From NCBI RefSeq assembly GCF_013368755.1, contig NC_049565.1, positions 4,960,001 to 5,024,000 of the forward strand: a stretch of 64,000 bases of DNA. Reading direction: 5' to 3'. The DNA comes from Talaromyces rugulosus (taxonomy: Eukaryota; Ascomycota; Eurotiomycetes; Eurotiales; Trichocomaceae). Positions 7,585 through 21,000 of the stretch are shown in pieces (position 1 is the first letter of the stretch; each line of letters starts with the position of its first letter). The position numbers were made by a program, and so were the translations under genes. Below the pieces are notes generated by a model. That model was not told where the DNA came from, did no database searches, and worked only from the letters and a program-made list of their open reading frames with translations.

Positions 7585-9544
7585 ATGCCGTCGCACGCCG
7601 CGGCCGCTCACGGACAGGTGATCGAGTACATTCAAGGTATGTACACGTGAGCATGGTGCTCCGCCATAGAACGGCGGTTCCGCCATCGCCTCGACACAAA
7701 ATGCTGACTTGCTTCAAGATCGCCTGTACCTCGCCTCGTACTCTTCTGCGCCAGACCCCAACACGCCGTTTCCGTTCCCCTCACAGCAGGCATCTTCTAG
7801 CAAGCGAACGGCCAAGGCTCCTCAGAGTCCGGTGAAAGTCGCCAAGCGCAAGTTTCCTGTATACTTTACCGTCGACGATACCCTCCTGTATAACGCCTTC
7901 CACGCCGACTTTGGCCCCCTTCATATTGGTCACCTGTACCGCTTCGCCGTGCATTTTCACGAAATCCTCGGAGACCCAACAAATTCTGATAAGCCCGTCG
8001 TGTTCTGGAGCAGGCCCGATGCTCGAAGTCGTGCAAATGCGGCCTGCTTGGTCGCCTGCTATATGGTGCTGATTCAATCGTGGCCGCCGCATTTGGCCCT
8101 TGCGCCTATTGCCCAAGCCGATCCTCCATACATGCCATTTCGCGATGCTGGTTACAGCCAGGCCGACTTTGTTCTTAATATTCAAGATGTTGTATATGGT
8201 GTGTGGAAGGCGAAAGAAGAAGCCCTTTGTGGCCTGAAGGATTTCAGCCTGGAAGAGTAAGTCGAGCGCCACTTGATTGACCCTGCTAGATGCTGACAAC
8301 GATAATCTAGATATGAACGATATGAGCGTGTGGATATGGGGGATTTCAACTGGGTAACCCCTCACTTCATCGCTTTTGCGTCGCCACAACAGGAGCCCGT
8401 TGCACCCATTCCTACCAACTCCGCCAAATACGCTGCGCTTCCAAAGTCAATTTCAGAAGTGATGGCTTCGCAGCTCCCGCAGCCTTTCAAGAACGTACTC
8501 GCGCACTTTTCGTCTCGGGACGTTGGCCTAGTCGTCCGTTTGAACTCGGAACTCTACTGCCCGTCGTATTTCACGGCCCTCGGTATCGAGCATATAGACA
8601 TGATCTTTGAAGACGGCACGTGTCCTCCTTTACCATTGGTTCGACGATTCATCAAAATGGCCCACGAAATGATTACCGTGAAAAACCGGGGAATTGCTGT
8701 CCACTGCAAGGCTGGTCTGGGTCGCACCGGCTGCCTCATCGGTGCTTACTTGATTTACCGATATGGGTTTACCGCAAACGAGATCATCGCTTTCATGCGA
8801 TTCATGCGTCCTGGCATGGTTGTCGGGCCACAGCAGCATTGGCTTCATCTCAACCAAGGCTCTTTCAGAGAATGGTGGTTTGAGGATACTATGCGTGAGA
8901 AGCTTGCCCTGGCTGCGCCAGTCACACCCGGCCGCCAAACCACCAAGCAAAGACCAAGTAATGGACAGACGGTAACTCCCCCCAACGGTAACCAACGAAG
9001 ATCAGCGCTCGGCGTAATCGATCATAACGAGGGCGGAGCGCCTTGTGCCGATGAGAATCTGCCCGCGCCAACCCCCGGTCAACCGCGCAAATCTCATCGC
9101 AAGGATTCTCGCCATCACCCATATGCCCGCAATGTGTCGGGCACTTTAGCTGTCAGTAACGAGGGGGATAAAACTTCCGATCGCAACACAGTTCGACGCT
9201 CTCAGCGTGGAGGCACCGAGGCTAGTGAAAGTGACGAGGAAATCCAGATGCGCATGCTAGCTAAGCGGACGTCCAGGTCGCCTAGTGGCTCACCCGCACG
9301 CTCAATCAGCTATTCGGCTACCGTCACCGCTAGCTATGAGTTACACGAGGACAGGGAAAACTGGGTGGAATCCGGTGCGCCTGCACAGAAGACTCCCAGC
9401 AGTGCCAAGGTTGGCATTCCCCTCAGCAAAATCCGCTCCAGTCCTCGTCGAGTGACAGACAGTAAGAGTGAGACCAAGGGTGTTCGCAAAATCAGTGGCC
9501 GGGTTGGCAGTGTTGGCACATCATCCCCAACGAGAGTGAAATGA
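7585..9544 (+). CDS. CDC14: Cdc14-type dual-specificity phosphatase
   Basis: Cdc14 removes phosphates from Cdk1 sites at mitotic exit and in cytokinesis or septation. Exons 7585-7636, 7719-8256 and 8311-9544 give 607 residues. An N-terminal Cdc14 domain (RLYLASYSS...PVYFTVDDTLLYNAFHADFG, PVVFWSRPDARSRANAA) precedes the catalytic domain. The signature HCKAGLGRTG lies near residues 328-337, with the nucleophilic Cys about 329, followed by GCLIGAYLIYRYGFTANE and the GMVVGPQQHWL loop. The last ~200 residues are Ser/Arg-rich and low in complexity, with SP and TP sites and basic clusters, as is usual for the regulatory tail that governs nucleolar and spindle-pole-body location. The intron ends are standard. 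Identification is secure. Confidence 0.96.
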
Positions 9545-10122
9545 GAACATTCTCGACCGCTCACTGCCTACATTTTGGTGCCGTTACCAGCTTGACTTGC
9601 ATGATATCCCTGTTTTAAGTCACTTCTTTTCCGACGTATAGATTCTGCTGGTTTGGATCACGATGAACTGATTATTCTTCTGCGAGTACATTTTAATTTT
9701 ACATCTTTCAAGGGCTTGGAATTACGAAAAGCACGAGTGAGAGTTTGGGAAGGGCATGGCGTTTTCTGGTTGTTTGGTTTATTGGTTTGCACTGAGGGTG
9801 TGATTTATTTTTATATTCTTTTTCAACCAGCGGCAGTGGTCTTTTGGGACCGGCTGGTTTATTTTTGATTGATGTTTTGCTCAAGTTTTGGTTGCGCAGT
9901 ACGTTACATCATGCCACGACCGATGATGTTCGTACGAAATGAGATTCAATTATTTCAAGTTTCACGATTTTTAAATGTAGCCACTACCGTAATTGATCAT
10001 ATCAAATGATTTCTCACACCATCAGGGGACGGAATATACCCTACCTCGATCAGCCAAGAAGTACGAAGGTCTCGCTTCCTGATACAGTCTTGCTTCACAC
10101 ATCAATGTTTCCCAAAGCTTAA
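9545..10122. other. Convergent 3' spacer
   Basis: This lies between the CDC14 stop and the end of the minus-strand secreted protein gene. It is T-rich after 9600, consistent with 3' untranslated sequence. No gene is seen. Confidence 0.5.
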
Positions 10123-10799
10123 TCAAGTCTCTGTTATCAACGACACACAGTTTCCCTACATAGGCATAATCAGTGACTTAAACGAACGCTTGAAAAAGAC
10201 AAGGGAGAACATACCATCAACTTGCAGTCTCTCATCCCATCGACCCCTCGACACATCTTCGTATTGAAATATCTCATAAAATCCAGCACCGACTGATAGA
10301 AACCCCCCCTCCAATCCTCGTCTCGTTCACAATCCATCCCGCTCTCTCCTATATGCTTCAACGATGTAGTCACCTTGCGCATCGCCTGATCACGGCATTT
10401 TCTCGTCTTCTTGTCAATGTCCAAACAAAGGTCGCGTCGACCACTACACTCGAAGAGCTCACGCATGTATTTCAAATGGGCGGGTCTCGCTGTGCAGTTG
10501 GGTTTGTACTGAATTGAGATGAGCTCAGGAACGAGGAATTGCGAGATGTACGAGGCGTCGCTGGGCCAGGTGCCTGGCTGGCAGCCGTTATCACAGATCT
10601 GTTTCCATTCGTCCGAGATGGCGTCGAGGGAGGGTTGGTAGCTGATTTCGTCGTCCTCGATGGAGCTGGTTTCTTCGGAGCTGCTGCTGCTTGTTTGACC
10701 AGAGGTTCCTGCTGCTGATGTCGGTGTGGATATTGAGCTAGTGGCGTGAGTCACTGCGGCAAAGAGTGCCGATGAGAGCAGAATCGTGGATAGCTTCAT
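10123..10799 (-). CDS. Cysteine-rich secreted protein, unknown function
   Basis: Exons 10799-10215 and 10155-10123 join to 205 residues. The start MKLSTILLSSALFAAVTHA gives a clear signal peptide; upstream in-frame codons exist but would bury it. A Ser/Thr-rich spacer (about residues 20-50, with SSSSSEETSS) is followed by a domain with ten cysteines, including ICDNGCQPGTW, PNCTARP, FECSGRRDLC, RKCRDQ, MDCERDEDW, KMCRG and RDCKLMGNC. The even number suggests disulphides. The last intron (gtatgt donor, tatgtag acceptor) swaps a run-on tail for GNCVSLITET and supplies the tenth Cys, which supports the model. Function is not recognised; it could be a wall-associated or effector-like protein. Confidence 0.75.
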
Positions 10800-11582
10800 G
10801 GTGGATGTGTTATGTGAAGATATGATCAGCCGGGGGGCGAAACAGTTGACTTGCCACCTTTCAACACGTAGGGAGAGCCCGTGAATATAAAGAGTCGGCG
10901 CATTCCTTGCCCTTGATGACTGTGCACGATTTTGAAATTGACATGCCAACACCCCTGGAATACTGGAAGCCCCAAGAGAAAACCCTAATTTCTTGGTTGA
11001 GGATACTCGATATAGGGAACTAATAATTCCCGTTTACATATATCCTTGCTTGATGAAATCATCGTTAAAGACTGTAGTTCTTAACCAGGAGTATTCAAAT
11101 TTTCGCTGCGAAGATAGGAAGGAGCTTTGCAAGGGTGGGTGACCCCTTTCAAGGGGTTACAATTTATTACATCCAAATATACAATGATTGCATCCCCAAG
11201 CCTACCTTGAAAAAACACCAATCAGTTACTCGGCTATAGATCAATTCATGATAGTTTATGTTTTGCCCACATTTTCATACCTGAATAGGTAATTACCTAT
11301 CATTCCTTCGCGACACAAGGAAATAGAAAAGCAGAAACTTTAATTAATAAAACTCTAAATGTTATTAATTATACTTTAGAGCATGATATTGCTCCACAAT
11401 TTAAACCAACTCAAAGACGACTTCCAAGTGGCGATTGTGTATGAATGACATAAGAGCGCTACATCATAGCAGATTACTAGACAATAAAATTTTTGTCAAA
11501 TATCCAAACACTTCTCATAAGAAATAATTCACAATAAAGAAGGCAAGAATTGAAATTAATACTCAGCTACATCGTCCAAACA
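10800..11582. other. AT-rich spacer
   Basis: It contains the promoter of the Cys-rich secreted protein gene and AT-rich sequence (11160-11580). No gene is seen. Confidence 0.5.
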
Positions 11583-11906
11583 ATGAATAAATATAAACCC
11601 GGCCAATGGGTGGAATATAGCCCTATTGACAGTACTGTTTCCACCCCTCCCCCCGAATATGTCGAGAAAACCTAATGGAATTTCTTTCAGATCCATACCC
11701 GCACAAAGGTGTCATCTCATCACTTGTCAAAGACGAAAGTGGGAACCATACGGGGCAATATTTGGTATGTTTTTATGATTATCTTTTCTAGAGACACACT
11801 GATAGATGAACTCGAATAGGTTAGGGAACGAGATCTCGAGGACCGTATACATACGGTAAACGAAAGATTTATTTATCAAATGCTAGACAAGCCCGCAGGT
11901 CCTTGA
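11583..11906 (+). CDS. Micro-gene A: 69-residue protein, probable Tudor/SH3-like fold
   Basis: This gene is split by two introns into pieces too short to notice singly. Exons 11583-11631, 11691-11764 and 11820-11906 join without a stop to 69 residues. The start MNKYKPGQWVEYSPI, a middle GVISSLVKD and the later GQYLV...RIHTVNERFI pattern resemble small fungal proteins beginning KYxPGQxVEY that I associate with the hypervirulence-associated TUDOR (DUF2945-like) group; that link is from memory and tentative. Intron 1 is 59 bases with a CTAAT branch site and ttcag acceptor; intron 2 is 55 bases with gtatgt donor. A clear paralogue lies 300 bases downstream with the same intron phases and lengths, which strongly supports both models. 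No signal peptide, so probably intracellular. Confidence 0.65.
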
Positions 11907-12201
11907 GGGGGCTATATAATGTTGTTTAGAATGAACCAGGCTTAGTAGATAATACTGAGCATCGATAGTGAATTTCTGCATAATTGGTCGTGTATTATTA
12001 CATGTAGCATTTGGAAATGTTAAATTTAGTCATTGTCGGGATTGTAGTCCGGCAGTCGCCTGTGGCGTTGGATGGTGAAATCAGTGTTTTAATAAACTTA
12101 CCCTGAACATTTCATCCAAGTCAGAGAACTAATAGTACCAAAGTCACAGTGCCATTTACAAGCTTAAATCTGCTAAGAAGCATTTTGGAATAAGCGGGAC
12201 T

Positions 12202-12543
12202 ATGGCAAAATACAGTAAAGGACAGAAAGTTGAATTTATGCCGCATGGCACCGAGTCTAAACCTCACGATGGCAAGTATTCAATGAAATTCCACCCTGAA
12301 GCCAATAAGATCTAACAAGTCTTAATTCAGCCAACACAAAAGGGTACCACAACTATGAGCATGCCGGCTATATTATCGATATCATGACTGACCGTGGTGG
12401 TGGATTTATTGGGCAATACGCGGTGGGCATATCCTGTTCCTTGTGCATGAGTAAGGGTTAATAATGGAACGTTAAAGGTGCAAGATACTACTCGCAACCG
12501 TGTCGAAATAGTGGAAGAAGGCGATATACTGAGATCAGAATAG
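12202..12543 (+). CDS. Micro-gene B: 75-residue paralogue of micro-gene A, with a GC-AG intron
   Basis: Exons 12202-12271, 12331-12422 and 12478-12543 join to 75 residues starting MAKYSKGQKVEFMPHG and containing AGYIIDIMTD and GFIGQYAVQD. The parts line up with micro-gene A: KY-x-x-GQ-x-VE at the start, a hydrophobic G-x-I strand, GQY before intron 2, and an acidic end EEGDIL. Intron 1 is 59 bases, phase 1, with a rare GC donor in the strong context gcaagt and a CTAAC branch site 14 bases before the cag acceptor. The nearby GT donor, two bases further on, would throw the frame off. Intron 2 is 55 bases, phase 0, at the same site as in A. The fold assignment is tentative, the paralogy firm. 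Confidence 0.65.
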
Positions 12544-13409
12544 CTGCGCATATACACTCCAACGGGGTTAAAATTGAAGACTATTCTCAGTGGAAAGAAA
12601 AGAAAATCTTGAATTACAAGACTGACCTGTGACAAAAGTGTTATCCCGATGTAAGTGATATAACATACATATGTAGATCGGTTTTAGATGTATTCATGAT
12701 AGAAGGGCCAGCAGTCAAGTTGTTCCTTTCCCGGCGTAAGGGCCTGATATCAAAGGATTAAAATGTTCCCACACATAGACAGGTATGATGTAATTTGGCT
12801 CGGGGCAACCAATGATCATCTATCAGTGCACATAACAGAAGCCAAGAAATGCACCAGTAGCTTTTTTTGGCATGATAAGACAGATACTGACAATCCAAGT
12901 ATGATATTGCCAATCAACGAGATGGAATCGTAATCACTTTTAAAGAAATTGGAGCGCCTTACGCCTATCCATGCCCTCCTTGTTCCCGAGGTCCAGATAG
13001 ATGCCACACCCGATCCAAGTATGGGATATACGTACATAGTAGGTTATCTTGCTCGCGAATCATAGAAAGCTATCATACTAAAAATATAGTGATCGACGTT
13101 TAGCTTCCGAGTTGGTGGACCAACAAGGGGTGGTGTTTGGTCTATAGGCACACTCCACAAAAATATTTGGACACTTAAACAATCTCCGCAAAGGAATGTT
13201 GGTATTTTGTTACGAATTAGTGGAGATTTTTTCAGGTTCTCCAGTTTCAAACGTCAGCAAACGCTGATTATTATTCTCCAGTATGGGTCTACCAATGCTG
13301 GTGTACATATAAAAGGAACGAATATCGTACAATATCGTCTTCAAATCTAGTCAAATTAATGGAGTATTTCATTTCATTTGTTTTCCTATGATTTAATGGA
13401 TTGGCCAAA
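12544..13409. other. Spacer with one doubtful small ORF
   Basis: AT-rich spacer leading to the MFS gene. The only frame of interest is a 56-codon plus-strand ORF, 12763-12933 (start MFPHIDRYDVIWLGATN), which looks protein-like but has no match I recognise and no splice partner. The words atccaagtatg occur twice (near 12895 and 13012). I do not call a gene. Confidence 0.4.
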
Positions 13410-15151
13410 ATGGTTACTTTCACAGAGAAGCCAGCAGATATTCAGCAAACGGAAAAATTGGCTGAACCGGAAGACGAAGCTGGTTCTCTTTCCACAAAAA
13501 CTAGTTGTGATACACTTCCCTCAGCTCATTGCTCTACGGAGCAACTCATTGAACATGAAATCGTCCCTAGTTCACCAGATTCATTGTATTGTGACAAATA
13601 TATGCGGGAATTCTGTGTCGACTTTACCGAAAACGATCCCGAAAACGCTCAGAACTGGAGTATATGGTACCAAATATATACTGTTATCGCCATCACATAT
13701 TCTGCTTGGGCAACAGTGCTATACTCGACTTGCTACTCCAGTGGCATTCCTGATATGATGGCGGATTTAAACATTGCTAATGAGACGGTGGCAAACCTGG
13801 GAATTTCTCTCTATCTTCTAGGATGGTCGATTGGTTCTCTTGTCCTGGCTCCACTGGGCGAGACTGTTGGACGACGGCCGGTTTATATCACGGCTTTATT
13901 ACTTTTTATAGGACTGATACCGGCAGCGGCCCTGGCAAACTCCTTTGTCGTCATTCTTATTGTGCGAGTTTTGGGGTAAGCTGCCTATTTCCAGCTTTTA
14001 ATATTATCATGGTAATCAACACTGGCTGACGACATAAAACCAAATAGGTCTATTGTTGGAGGTGTCATGGTTAGCGTTGCGCCTGGAAGCCTGGTTGATA
14101 TCGTGCCAGCCTCTCACACGGCGCTTGCTATGTCATTCTATTCATTTGGAACGTTGAATGGCCCAGTTACTGGACCGATTATTGTATGCTATGGGTTCGA
14201 AATCCAATGCTATTGAGCGAAAGCTAACGTGTATTTCTTGACTAGGGAGGTTTTGTAACTAAGCGCTGGGGTTGGAGAGGCGATGGCTGGTTTATCATGA
14301 TAGCCTCTGGGGTTGGACTGGTTATGATGTCGTTAGTACGAGAATCTTATCCACCAGTCATTCTTCGTCGACGAGCTGCAAAGATGCGCAAACAAACAAG
14401 AGATCCACGATGGTGGTCAAAATATGACGAGTGCGAAATTCCGCTGCATAAACGACTGCGAACTGCGCTTTGGCGACCAATAAAACTGTGCGTTACAGAA
14501 CCGGTACTGTGGTTTTGGAATTTCTACATCTCCGTCATCTATGCAATTCTTTACCTCTGTGTGGTTGCCTACCCGATAATCTTCCAAATCCGGCAGTGGT
14601 CACCAGAGATGTCCGGACTTGCATTCCTTGGTGTTTTCATCGGAAACACTCTCGCCGTGGTTTGCGAGCCATTACTTCGGCGGCTGGTCAACCTCCACCC
14701 CGTTGATATTCGCACGGGTCTACGGGCTCCCGAGGCGTCGGTTTTGGTGATCATCATCGCTGCCGTCATAGCACCAATTGGTCAGTTGGTTTTTGCGCTG
14801 ACGTCTTTGCCGGCCTCGGTTCCTTGGATTGTGTCTATGTTTGGCGCTGTTCTCTTTGGATTTGGGAACACGATCATCTTCACATACGGCACAAATTACG
14901 TTGCCGTCTCCTACGGGATATACGCATCTTCTGCCCTTGTATCTAATTCCGTCTGTCGCTCGCTGCTTGCCGCGGGCCTTGTGGAAGTTGGGCAGCGTTT
15001 CTACAGCGACCTCACTCCACGTGTAGCAGGGATTGTGCTTGCTGGTGCTGAATTTGCCATCATTCCCATTCCAGTTTTGTTTTATATATGGGGGCAAAAA
15101 GTGCGCTTGCGAAGTAAAGCACTTGGAAAACAATCTGCTTCGCAAGAATAA
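13410..15151 (+). CDS. MFS transporter, DHA1-like (drug/polyamine type)
   Basis: Exons 13410-13975, 14048-14183 and 14246-15151 give 535 residues. A ~75-residue polar N-terminal tail is followed by the typical ENDPENAQNWS segment before helix 1, found in fungal DHA1 transporters. The motif between helices 2 and 3 is GETVGRRPVYI (Motif A variant), and PGSLVDIVPASHT and SFGTLNGPVTGPIIGGF mark helices 4-5, with ten or more hydrophobic segments in all. The centre has the basic loop MRKQTRDPRWWSKYDE. It should export small molecules across the plasma membrane using the proton gradient; the substrate cannot be told. ATG 13410 is the first in frame. Family secure, substrate unknown. Confidence 0.9.
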
Positions 15152-16221
15152 CTGCACATATCATTTGAACTGTTTGGATAAAGATACATCAATTCTCCTG
15201 TCATTTATAGTATAGTATGCCAACGTCTGGGTTAAATTGCACATGTGGTTTTTACAATGAAAAAGGTTGTACTCTTACAATTGTTTCTTTTGCTTTTATT
15301 GAGTTAATCTTAATACAACAACGTAAAACACAATAAAAATGTCAACGAAAACAAGCAAGACCGCCAAGCCAGCTACTCTCGGCAGTCGGCACATTCCATC
15401 GATAGTGTGATGATGCTTATAGATGCTAAGACTCAAGAGACGTCTCGGCAGAGATCGGCTCTCAGCACTGTGGAGCAGACTCAGCCTCATTCCATGTCTT
15501 GTCTCGTTGTTGGGAGCGTTGCGTATCTAAATTAATAATAACTCTGAACTCTAATCTTAAAGACTGTTTGTTTGGGGATCAGCTTGAGCTCCACCTATCG
15601 ACAGCGAGTATGTACGGATTATTTACTTCAACGAAACAGAGACAATAATAATCCCCCAAAGCGTGCGTGATTTCAAAATTGATCTCAGGATGCGCCAGGA
15701 TCACTGTGCTAGTTAGTAGTAGCTCCTGCTGCTGAATCATGACACCTTCCCAAAGCGTCTTGTCGCAGCACCAAGCAGCGTGACTTCGCGGATGATCCAT
15801 CTCCACCTCGGCAAGCCCTAACTAACCCGCAATGCAACGCGATCTGCAGGGGGCGCACCGCAAATCAACCAGCCTTCACTGTGATTTGTGTTGTCTCGCT
15901 CCACTGGAAATGCCTGCCCAATTGCCAGCCTGGACCTGGCCAACACTGGCGTCACATTCTCCTCCATCGCGACATCGCGGCACCGCCTTATCTCAGGGAC
16001 AGCAGTGATCGGATCATGCTTGTTACTTTTTTCCACCGTTCGACGGAGTACTACTAGAAAAACTACGTAGATCCAATTTCTCACTAAACAATAGTGGAGA
16101 GGCTAATAGTACGTATAATAGCGACGAGTGCTTAATTGGTATTAATACACCGGCCGCCCCCCGCGAGTCTCGTCTGGAGCTCCCCAGTCCAACTCATACC
16201 TCTGACATCGACTCAATCAAG
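15152..16221. other. Spacer before the carboxypeptidase gene
   Basis: About 1.07 kb without a supported gene. Short overlapping frames on both strands around 15300-16084 look random. The final 90 bases before ATG 16222 are pyrimidine and CA rich, as in a 5' leader. Confidence 0.5.
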
Positions 16222-17952
16222 ATGCATGTCCTCACTGCCTTCACGACGCTTGTCGCTGCGGGCGCTGCTCTGCAGAGCAACCCTCATGCAAAAGCTGCCG
16301 GAGCCAGAAAATCGCACCCCATGATTCCTGCAGCCAACAACAAGCGCAGTGTCGAGGCCGAGAAGTCCAACGGGTTTCAGTTCCTGTCAAACTCCACCGA
16401 GAGTGAGCAAAGCCCATTTTTTATTATCGCTGGAACTAAAGACTGATTTATGATTGCAACAGAGTTCTTCGTCAACGGCACCACCATCCCTTCGGTCAAC
16501 TTCGACGTCGGCGAGTCGTACGCCGGCAACTTGGCCAACACGCCGCATGGCAAATCCAGCCTGTTCTTCTGGTTCTTCCCATCGACCAACCCGGACGCCG
16601 AGAAGGAGATCACAATCTGGCTGAACGGTGGCCCAGGATGCAGCTCACTCGACGGTCTGCTGCAAGAAAACGGTCCTTTCCTCTGGCAGTCCGGTGTCTA
16701 CGAGCCTGTCCGCAACATGTACTCGTGGAACAACCTGACCAACATTGTCTACATCGACCAACCCGCCGGAACCGGTTTCTCACCTGGCCCAGCGACCGTG
16801 AACAACGAGGTTGACGTCTCCAACGAGTTCAATGACTTTTGGCGCCGCTTCATCGACACCTTCAGCATGCAGGGCTACAAGGTGTACATCACCGGTGAAA
16901 GTTATGCTGGAATGTACATTCCGTACATTGCCGAAGGTTTCATCGAGCAAAACGACACCAAGTACTTCAACTTGAAGGGCATTCAAATCAACGACCCGTC
17001 TATCAACGACGACAGCGTCCTGATCTACGGTATGATTCCCAAAAAAACGACCTTGAGCTTCTGTGAGCAAATGCTAACAAAACGCGAAAAATACAGCCCC
17101 TGCTGTTGCGGCACTGAACCACTTCTCCGCCGTCTTCAACCTCAACGATACCTTCATGAAGGAGATCAACGCGCGCGACAAGAAATGTGGCTTCACCAAG
17201 TACCTGGACGAGGCTCTGACCTACCCACCCCCCTCTAACTTCCCGACTGTTCCAGACCCCTATAGCGATGACTGCCAGGTGTGGGATGATATCACGACTG
17301 CGGCGGCTCTGGTTAACCCGTGCTTCAACATTTACCATCTCACTGATTTCTGCCCGTACCCCTGGGATGTGATGGGTTTCCCCTCGCTTGCTGGTGGTCC
17401 CAATGACTACTTCAACCGATCGGACGTACAGAAGGCCCTGCACGCCCCGCCAACCGACTACTCGATCTGCGGAGGTAACGTTTTCCCCGAGGGTGACAAT
17501 TCCGTGCCCAGCGCCCTGGGCCCATTGCCCAAGGTCATCGAGGCCACCAACAATGTCCTCATCGGACATGGGTGGTATGACTATCTGCTCATCATGAACG
17601 GCACCCTGGCGACCATTCAGAACATGACCTGGAACGGTGCCCAGGGATTCCAGAGGCCACCCACCGAGCCTCTCATCGTGCCCTACACTTCTGGTTTGGT
17701 CGCGGATCCAAACGTCTGGGACGGTGGCGCAGGTGTTCTGGGTACAGCCCACACCGAGCGTGGTTTGACCTTTAGCTCTGTTTACGGATCTGGACATGGT
17801 AAGTCCTGGATTCTCGATTTTCGGATAATGACACTAACAGCATCACAGAAATTCCCCAATACGTTCCCGGCGCGGCATACCGCCAGCTGGAATTCTTGCT
17901 CGGACGAGTCAAGAACCTGCAGGACCCTGCACCATTTACGACACTGAAGTAG
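16222..17952 (+). CDS. Secreted serine carboxypeptidase (peptidase family S10)
   Basis: This enzyme trims C-terminal residues from peptides at acid pH. Exons 16222-16402, 16463-17029, 17097-17798 and 17849-17952 give 517 residues. The signal peptide [19 protein letters not shown] is followed by a short propeptide-like stretch containing NKR. Substrate-binding [10 protein letters not shown], nucleophile Ser in [10 protein letters not shown], catalytic Asp in [10 protein letters not shown] and catalytic His in VYGSGHEIPQYVP are all present, the His right at the last exon junction. Many N-x-S/T sites suggest glycosylation. It resembles the Aspergillus/Penicillium carboxypeptidase S1 type. The gene is convergent with the GH31 gene; together with the next gene it points to secreted nutrient breakdown. 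Confidence is high. Confidence 0.95.
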
Positions 17953-18169
17953 GTTGAGACCTAAAGAGTCAATGGCATGTACATATGTGATAGATTTAAA
18001 GTCCGTTACGATCTGAATGTACACTTACACATACATACTTGAATATAAACAGGGTGAATTGCCCTTAAATATTGTACCAGGGATAGTAATGGAGAAGAGG
18101 ATTCATATGATAAAAACTATGTACAGGAAAGTAACTTATATTCAAGGAAAACGTTTAAAACAGCCCAAG

Positions 18170-21000
18170 CTACTGGTTGATCTTAGCCTCCCAACCTTCG
18201 TTCAACCCCTTCTTCAACGTCGTGTACGACGAAAATCCATTGCTACTCTTGGTCGAACTTGTGCCCATGACCCTGGCGCGAATGACCTGGCAGCTTGTCT
18301 GGAAACCAAACGTTCCGTTTACCGACAACTGACCATTATCGAAAGTGAAACCTATTTCACTCGAAAACGACGGGTTGACGCTCTTCCCATCGTCCAGATA
18401 GAGGCTCCCCGTGGCCTGGCCGTTGGTATCGGGAGCGATGAGGAGCTCGAAATCGTGAGTACGCAGTTGCGCCGTAGTGTTAGCCTTGTCGGCATCGGAG
18501 CGAAGGGCGATAACAGATCCGCCGCGAACGTGGACGGGGATGTCGGTGTATGTGACATTGTCGACGGTGATCTGTGAGCCAGTACCGACGACCTTCTCGC
18601 CCGTCCAAAAGTCATAGAATAGATCGTCGGGTAGATACAAGGTGGCGCTCTGCGAGTCTGTTGCCGTCGCCGTCGCCGATGGGCTTTCCTCGGTCACTGG
18701 CGAGACGAGGATGGAAGGGCCGAAGAAGAACTGATAGCTGATATCCAAAGTATTCGCATCGTTCGGATATTGGAAGAAAAGTGGGATGATGGTCGTGGGT
18801 GAGCCATCAACGGTCTGCTGGTGGAAGGCTGTATAGAAGTAATCGAGGAGCTGGAACCGCGTAGCAATCGCCTTTTGGGCTGCAGCAGCTACCAAGGGCC
18901 ACCGGTAGAATTCCTGGAAGTTGGAGCTGATGTCTGCGTGGTTTCGGTAGAATGGATACCAGGCGCCCAACATGGCCCATCTGGCGCAGAGCGTTTCGGT
19001 CGTATTGTCATTAAAACCGCAAACGTCGGTGCCGATCATGGGCATCTGGAAGATTGATGCGAATTCCATGTGCTGCACGATCGAGAGGAGATAGTTGGCC
19101 CATGTCGATGCGTTGTCACCGGTCCATTTACCGGTTTTTGCGCCGTCCCCCGCAAAGCTGCTGCGAGTGATGATAAAAGGGCGCTCCGATGAACGGCGGT
19201 CGAGTAAGCCCTGTCTCGAGTGCGCAATCATCTGCGAAGCATAGAGATTATGCGTGTCATACATAGTATAATCGTCGTATTGCCGTACTTCGGGGTATAC
19301 AGTGCCCGCGTTTAGTGTTCCGTCACCTGTTGCTGGTATATAGGGCGGATTGGCAAAGTTACGGCCAGAGAGCCCGGTCATGTTGCCCGTGCTTCTCGTA
19401 CTCAGTCGACGAGATGATGTCGATGGTGGCTGAAAGTCGGCAGGGAACCCAGGCAGAGAGTCCCAGGTCGTACGCACCGCTGGTGGTGCGGGCGGAATAC
19501 CACCTTCAATGGCAATTTGAATAGGGTTGGAGCATGGGTATGTGCAGAAATTTGCGGGCTATACAACATTAAGTCAGCCCTTGATCAATCCTAGTTTTCT
19601 TGGAGTTGAAAATCATACCTCGTTCATATCTATCCACATGCCATCCACGCCGACACCGGATTCATCATCAAAAAACGACCCAATCTGGCCACTCCAAAAA
19701 TCCATTGCATTGGGGTTGAAAAAATCTACATATGAGGCGGCACCGGACCACATGGTAGCGACGAAGTCAGACCCATTGTCCCACTTCATAAATAGGCCTT
19801 TCTCTTTTGCCGTGGCATACAAGGAGGTATCGTTTATAGATATTGGCGGGTCTACCATCAAGATATACTGTTGTTGGTGGTCATGTAAATACGTCACCAG
19901 CTCCTGCATCTTGTGTAGTGGAAACCGCTCTGGATCAAGCGTCCAGGGGCGGCGCAGGTCCATATAGTCGATATCTGTCCACATTGTTTCTAGTGGGATA
20001 TTCGCCTGTGAGTAGTTGTAGACGACTTCGGCGACCATCATGACGTCCTCATAGCCGTACTTGCATTGGTGGAAGCCGTATGTCCAGTAGGACTGCTCAG
20101 CGGGCTATTGAATCTATTAGCTAATGTCCCTTTTTTTCTTCTCAAAAAGAATGAAAACGAGCATACCGTTCCAACAACTCCGGCGTATTGGCGGGCCACA
20201 TCCGCTGGCGCAGGCCCGGATAGGAAATAGAAATCAAGCACGCCACCAATGGTGTTGTACTCGAGATACTGCCCGTCCTGTGTGGTCTTGTTGATCTTGA
20301 TATCCATTCCGTTGCTATTCGACAAGAATACGCCGTGGGCTTGGCCATCGCGCATCTCAATGTAGATCGGGTGGCTACTATATAGACTCTGAAGCGGGGG
20401 TAAAAAGGCGGCGCCTCTGTTCCACAACGGGCGCGTATAATCGACGGTCTGACGCTTGAAAGAATCCGAATCTTCGCCTAGCCCGTAAATGTTTGGGTTT
20501 TCGGGGAGAGACGTGCGCAGACGGACGTATTGGCTTTCAAAAATCAGACCGCTTGCATTGAACAGGGTCTCCTGGGTGGAGCGCCGCTGGATAGCGAATG
20601 TGAACGGGTTTGTGGTGTACGAGAAGACTAGGTCAGAGCTGCTCGATGAAGAGCCATGCTGGCCGGAAGGTGTTTCCAAAACGGAAGAGGGGATCTGGTA
20701 GACTTGCTCATCGGCGTCGTAGATTTTAACGTGGAGACGAGAGTCTTGCGTGTAACAATGTTAGTGTCTCGGCCGTGATTTCAAAGCCATTGTCAATTTA
20801 CCTGTCTGGTACTCGACCAACAACCTGAGATTGTCCAAATCGTCCCCATACACATTGCACACATCACCAGCCAGAGACAAGTCTGCTGTTAGTGACGAGC
20901 GCGACGACAAGATTGCGCCGGCATTGTAACCAGGACAGCTATCCACGGAGGCGGCCGCAGCAGCGGTGGCTAACCCTAAAAGAAAATATCCCCCGCGCAT
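18170..21000 (-). CDS. Secreted alpha-glucosidase (GH31)
   Basis: It releases glucose from the non-reducing ends of maltose and maltodextrins. Four exons, beginning with 21000-20802 and ending at 18170, give about 900 residues. The signal peptide is MRGGYFLLGLATAAAAA. Domain landmarks are NIYGLGEDSDSF, QSYWTYGFHQCKYGY, TMWTDIDYMD, the nucleophile block DGMWIDMNE (its last residue closes exon 3) and the acid/base block GKWTGDNAS, then FWTGEKV and VRGGSVIAL in the C-terminal beta domains. Introns are phase-consistent. A further in-frame ATG at 21060 would place 20 residues before the signal peptide, so 21000 is preferred. The insert of about 80 residues after the catalytic block (PPAPPAVRTTWDS...) is Ser/Pro-rich. 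It may act with the intracellular maltase at 29-30.8 kb. Confidence 0.94.

Follow-up and report, generated by a model that had tools for sequence, protein, structure and literature searches.

What are the two tiny gene models, A and B, that lie one after the other on the forward strand of a 64,000-nucleotide stretch of the Talaromyces rugulosus genome, and do they encode proteins at all? The stretch, called the window here, corresponds to C5:4960001-5024000 of a 35.76-Mb six-contig assembly. Very probably, A and B make up a divergent group that is sister to the fungal Hva1_TUDOR family (PF11160, formerly DUF2945), a reading that also takes in clusters of further copies on another chromosome and a predicted barrel fold. 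They are called a divergent sister group because the Pfam model misses them and because they lack the VxASxxxP loop of the Hva1_TUDOR genes, hereafter the parents. The Hva1_TUDOR family is assigned to the Tudor clan by Pfam (PMC6324024).

Both three-exon models proposed in the initial annotation were reproduced exactly: A (11583-11906) encodes 69 amino acids and B (12202-12543) encodes 75, with 0 internal stops. The intron layout was also as claimed, with an intron 1 of 59 nt in phase 1 and an intron 2 of 55 nt in phase 0 in both genes, and the KYxxGQxVE start, the GxI strand, and the GQY before intron 2 were present in A and B alike. The break at intron 2 falls at QYL|V in A and at QYA|V in B, and the site of intron 1 lies 7 codons farther downstream in B than in A, in the same loop. 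Intron 1 of B opens with GCAAGT and is a GC-AG intron, a feature absent from the earlier description.

The search with the A-D alignment (C and D being copies described below) against 5.8 billion proteins found P0002 with an E value of 1.9e-19. P0002 is ZTR_03706 of Talaromyces verruculosus, which is annotated as a hypothetical protein. This homologue, known as a protein sequence only, was identical to spliced A at 44/63 residues (70%) and aligned ungapped over both junctions; by part, the identity was 13/16 in exon 1, 1/1 at the junction residue, 17/24 in exon 2, and 13/22 in exon 3. ZTR_03706, a protein with no assigned function, differs from A in a longer charged C-terminal tail. The relative of B, P0001 (E 1.6e-22), is an unspliced mechanical translation. 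It was identical to B at 21/23 residues of exon 1 and 27/30 residues of exon 2, and its read-through of intron 1 differed in both sequence and length (66 bases by our own count vs 59 in B). P0003 consists of B exon 1 followed by intron read-through, and its single difference lies inside the intron. Judged from these sequences, A and B are genuine protein-coding genes, because the annotated T. verruculosus orthologue is ungapped over the junctions and the relative of B conserves the exons and not intron 1. Such genes had been thought too short for ordinary gene callers, a view at odds with the annotation of ZTR_03706, the orthologue of A, and of many fungal Hva1_TUDOR genes of ~75 amino acids. 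The parts of both genes are as follows, in window positions.

A exon 1: 11583..11631, forward strand; 16 codons + 1 base; MNKYKPGQWVEYSPID; a 49-nt exon 1 as in D, E, and the C2 Hva1_TUDOR gene.
A intron 1: 11632..11690, forward strand; GT-AG, 59 nt, phase 1; P0002 is ungapped over the junction.
A exon 2: 11691..11764, forward strand; PYPHKGVISSLVKDESGNHTGQYL; 17/24 residues identical to P0002.
A intron 2: 11765..11819, forward strand; GT-AG, 55 nt, phase 0; shares its site and phase with the intron placed at RYE|V in the C3 Hva1_TUDOR gene.
A exon 3, including the stop: 11820..11906, forward strand; 13/22 residues identical to P0002.
B exon 1: 12202..12271, forward strand; 23 codons + 1 base; 21/23 residues identical to P0001 and 23/23 to P0003 (by eye).
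B intron 1: 12272..12330, forward strand; GC-AG (GCAAGT...TCAG), 59 nt, phase 1; the P0001 read-through diverges from here.
B exon 2: 12331..12422, forward strand; 27/30 residues identical to P0001.
B intron 2: 12423..12477, forward strand; GT-AG, 55 nt, phase 0; the P0001 read-through diverges and re-agrees past the acceptor.
B exon 3, including the stop: 12478..12543, forward strand; the family model (with B in its training set) matches 12451-12540.

In the chance control, 70 same-phase pairs of three-exon models were possible between the two stretches, with a best score of 80 and a score of 72 for the annotated pair. The top score in 60 dinucleotide-preserving shuffles was 25; the mean was 0.43 pairs per shuffle, and few shuffles had any pair to score. 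The control mainly shows the rarity of such models by chance, and the evidence from outside homologues is stronger. An alternative splice of B scored higher against A (80 vs 72) but used GCACCG...TAAG sites, and the GCAAGT...TCAG sites were preferred.

We took a score above the Pfam curated cut-off of 24.1 bits as membership of PF11160. Genes above this cut-off were found at two places in the genome, C2:5293336 (the C2 parent) and C3:5630188 (the C3 parent). The C2 parent scored 63.4, its query being approximate in the last few residues; of the named proteins among its listed matches, the nearest are from T. stipitatus (78%) and T. proteolyticus (77%). The fungal branch of Hva1_TUDOR resembles A and B in being a single domain of ~70-75 amino acids with a Y-x-x-G-Q-x-V start, a G-x-I strand, and a Y-x-V strand. 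It differs in the conserved VxASxxxP segment that the parents carry before R-Y and A lacks; furthermore, A-D and P0001 are unseen by the Pfam model, and the copies are clustered. P0002 has no precomputed Pfam domain.

The profile of A, B, C, D, and P0002 matched that of 37 parents at 96.6% over 62 columns (E 4.8e-10 for one comparison). When copies E and F were added (seven members), the match was 97.0% with an E value of 8.8e-11 and a score of 54.4, compared with a maximum of 18.1 over 150 column shuffles, and with G and H also added it was 96.7%. A smaller profile test scored 39.2 vs at most 15.2 in 200 column shuffles. As single sequences against the 37 parents, P0002 reached 90%, B 87%, A 86%, D 81%, and E 63%. 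In the profile alignments, YE|V of the parents falls opposite YL|V of A, and a 10-column gap in A faces VxASxxxP. The Tudor/SH3-like fungal group named in the initial annotation proved to be the right neighbourhood, given the profile match of 96.6-97.0%, the intron sites common with Hva1_TUDOR, and a five-strand model obtained with the parents aligned.

In regard to the intron sites, the fungal Hva1_TUDOR pattern of two introns, in phase 1 after the first strand and in phase 0 before the V of R-Y-x-V, was found in A-G, and H has the second intron only. In the C2 parent, as in A, D, and E, exon 1 measures 49 nt and ends in phase 1. The splice that we chose for the C3 parent, among six candidate models, places a phase-1 intron behind YRSVG and fits a phase-0 intron to RYE|V; with intron 2 left in, the frame stays open, but 16 extra residues break up the family sequence. 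In 14/54 Hva1_TUDOR proteins, KPVG is separated from the following conserved motif by extra residues (4/54 were without a motif and were unscored), and RYE was followed by V and unrelated residues in 17/54, as counted by eye. We read the extra residues in these proteins as unspliced introns at the two sites in other fungi. On the evidence of these positions, the two-intron layout is ancestral, being that of the wider family, including the Hva1_TUDOR genes on other chromosomes.

The fold was predicted for P0002. When its alignment included 25 parents together with two exons from the window, the model had five strands and a mean predicted local distance difference test (pLDDT) value of 74.5. The alignment used sets RYMV of P0002 on RxVxA of the parents, whereas the profile alignment puts it on RYEI; a first fold alignment, in which the G-x-I strand was shifted by ~3 columns, was discarded. 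In a Foldseek search with the P0002 model, the Tudor domain of PHF1 ranked first (template modeling (TM) score of 0.73 by target length, E 6.2e-3), and 4P5N, the Hva1 of Cryptococcus, ranked second (TM 0.55 by target length, E 7.0e-3). 4P5N was not among the 50 matches listed by VIA-align. The structure prediction gave a divided answer, with five strands when the parent sequences were included and a poor model when they were not. The five-stranded SH3/Tudor-type barrel of A and B is regarded as predicted, since a good model was obtained only with parent-family sequences aligned.

Several observations weigh against the proposed relationship. The Pfam scan gave no PF11160 match for A, B, C, D, and P0001 even at E 10, likely because the VxASxxxP loop (10 residues) is deleted. 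In the profile comparison with the 37 parents, C and F reached just 1.4 and 1.0%, respectively, when run singly. Single sequences were also weak against a profile of the two parents of this genome (P0002, 41.5%; A, 27.9%; B, 10.0%; D, 6.3%; and C, 0.4%), and the pairwise score against the C2 parent was equalled by shuffles in 3/500 cases for A, 10/500 for B, and 2/500 for C. Among the gene structures, the C2 parent is without intron 2, intron 2 of the C3 parent could end at other acceptors and can be read through in an open frame, and the PF11160 candidate at C5:3023568 (15.5 bits, below the cut-off) has its introns elsewhere. P0002 folded alone had a pLDDT of 52, no match of the P0002 model in Foldseek reached 1e-3, and the PDB sequence searches gave no match to 4P5N. 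In these PDB searches, the family profiles gave chance-level matches only, the C2 parent gave none, and the parent profile gave one chance match.

The initial annotation described a pair only, and at least six more readable copies were found on another chromosome, C3, as listed below.

C: C3:2006255-2006586, forward strand; three exons.
D: C3:2006790-2007066, forward strand; three exons.
E: C3:2003347-2003680, forward strand; three exons.
F: C3:2003939-2004259, forward strand; three exons.
G: C3:1986552-1986240, reverse strand; both introns.
H: C3:1987105-1986821, reverse strand; intron 1 absent, intron 2 retained.
I: C3 near 1987869, reverse strand; probable further copy, splice sites unsure.
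J: C3 near 1988235-1988603, reverse strand; weaker, longer relative.
Exon-1 remnant: C3:1986000-1986101, reverse strand; adjoins G, with no start codon and no visible exon 2.

C3 thus has no fewer than five additional three-exon copies that are intact (C-G), and H without intron 1, besides the uncertain or degenerate ones. The eight readable copies, including A and B, are a lower bound, and coarse first-pass genome searches with A-D as queries missed E-J. Because the family model was trained on A-H, only I, J, and the exon-1 remnant are independent finds; when the sequence of these 100 kb was reversed, the model gave no match below E 0.5. Eight residues (G7, Q8, H21, G23, G38, Y40, E56, and I59 in the numbering of A) are kept in at least 8/9 aligned members. 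All introns of A-G are in phases 1 and 0, and their lengths range from 49 to 71 bases; the equal 59- and 55-nt introns of A and B are therefore not a family trait. An arrangement in obligate gene pairs (A-B, E-F, and C-D) was considered and dropped, as G, H, I, and J form a run. With respect to synteny, open frames of at least 40 residues from locus L008 matched window 8001-18000 at family exons only, and blastn between the same two regions gave 24 bases only (E 0.67).

The initial annotation had concluded from the identical layout that A and B are paralogues from a local duplication. They are real paralogous three-exon genes, but the shared layout is not evidence of local duplication, because it is ancestral to the wider family and occurs in Hva1_TUDOR genes on other chromosomes; moreover, A and B were sisters in 0/3 trees, which are weakly resolved. 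We consider it very unlikely that A and B are recent local duplicates of one ordinary gene with no wider family. The two genes do share a strand, with 295 bases between them and introns of matching length, but their proteins are just 30% identical (BLASTP E = 1e-7 in a single comparison) and their DNA shows no convincing similarity (E 0.056 for the best blastn match, which covered 17 bases and paired opposite strands). The identity between A and its T. verruculosus orthologue is 70%, so the split between A and B seems older than the split between the species. One tree (86/82) placed B with C of the other chromosome, though the trees built later from more members were poorly resolved (63/76 and 33/79). 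At least six other copies exist, and these largely refute the reading of a lone local pair. It is scarcely credible that A and B are open frames arisen by chance or pseudogenes in decay: although some C3 relatives are degenerate, such as the remnant at 1986000-1986101, the frames and splice sites of A and B are intact, and the orthologue with the same junctions, the limitation of conservation to exons, and the shuffle control all argue against it. Old tandem duplication together with movement between chromosomes and losses is the simplest reading of the history of the group. The strong divergence among the copies suggests relaxed constraint or changing partners.

On the sister-group reading, A and B would each encode one small single-domain protein with a predicted five-stranded SH3/Tudor-type barrel, without the VxASxxxP loop of the parents. 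Both introns would have been inherited from Hva1_TUDOR, the phase-1 intron in the loop after strand 1 and the phase-0 intron between Y-x and V, and the genes would belong to a multi-copy group spread over two chromosomes by old tandem duplication, with losses. Each product may act as a stand-alone intracellular binding module, in which a face of the barrel would bind a partner and the copies would diverge to different partners. No signal peptide or catalytic motif was noticed in A or B by eye, and small intracellular binding modules are our best guess for these proteins. The predicted structures point to a binding face, for which a partner peptide, NADP(H), and methyl-lysine are candidate ligands, the last being disfavoured by eye (no cage).

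Three more specific functions were weighed. HVA1 (CNAG_02591) of Cryptococcus neoformans has three exons, two introns, and a product of 75 amino acids, and the evidence on its role is a knockout phenotype (PMC5008624). A and B are similar in having three exons and products of 69 and 75 amino acids. It is rather unlikely that A and B act as the authors of the Hva1 study proposed for that protein, namely as an NADP(H)-binding barrel that adjusts the cofactor pool (PMC5008624). It is somewhat less probable again that they recognise methylated lysine or arginine in the manner of true Tudor readers. Many top structural matches are Tudor domains, e.g., those of PHF1 and PHF19, but the aromatic-cage positions do not seem to be kept, and a His kept in 8/9 members sits where a cage Tyr would be expected (both by eye, in comparison with PHF1). 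The Tudor of PHF1 is furthermore a domain within a chromatin protein, unlike the stand-alone A and B, and its cage residues seem absent from the A/B group (by eye). An improbable extension is that the copies form a lineage-specific, fast-diversifying set of stand-alone mini-Tudors that descends from a gene of the Hva1 type and has since evolved through birth and death on two chromosomes, its members recognising different partners in a genetic conflict (self/non-self recognition, genome defence, or mycovirus). Such a set would have gone unnoticed because it is unseen by Pfam.

Nothing in the literature searched on the family described the divergent A/B group. The structure of Hva1, a small fungal protein, is solved and a virulence-related phenotype has been described, but its molecular function is not settled; a multi-copy, divergent sister group offers natural variation on a barrel that is probably shared, and hence a means of learning which face binds what. 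The group also illustrates that expanded families of micro-genes can escape domain libraries, and that homology may still be recovered from intron sites where the sequence has nearly faded.

The following features surround A and B in the window.

7709-9544, forward strand: DSPn and DSPc domains in adjacent frames, which we take to be the layout of a Cdc14-type phosphatase gene.
10173-10952, reverse strand: open frame upstream of A and B with no Pfam match at E 0.01; its N-terminus is signal-peptide-like with a Ser/Thr-rich stretch (by eye).
13401-13976, forward strand: start of an MFS-type transporter gene, downstream of A and B.
16450-17944, forward strand: serine carboxypeptidase (Peptidase_S10) gene.
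18173-19477, reverse strand: GH31 glycosidase gene.

The occurrence of PF11160 in bacteria was patchy: it was found in 1/56 sampled genomes of one class (centre genome G001), and the other 55 had none, which left too few bacterial genes to build a profile. PF11160 genes above the cut-off were present in Robbsia, Paraburkholderia, and Burkholderia genomes (L020, L021, and L022). P0006, a DUF2945 protein labelled Pectobacterium parmentieri, is encoded on a 680-base contig and has the fungal family form, which perhaps reflects fungal contamination of a bacterial assembly.
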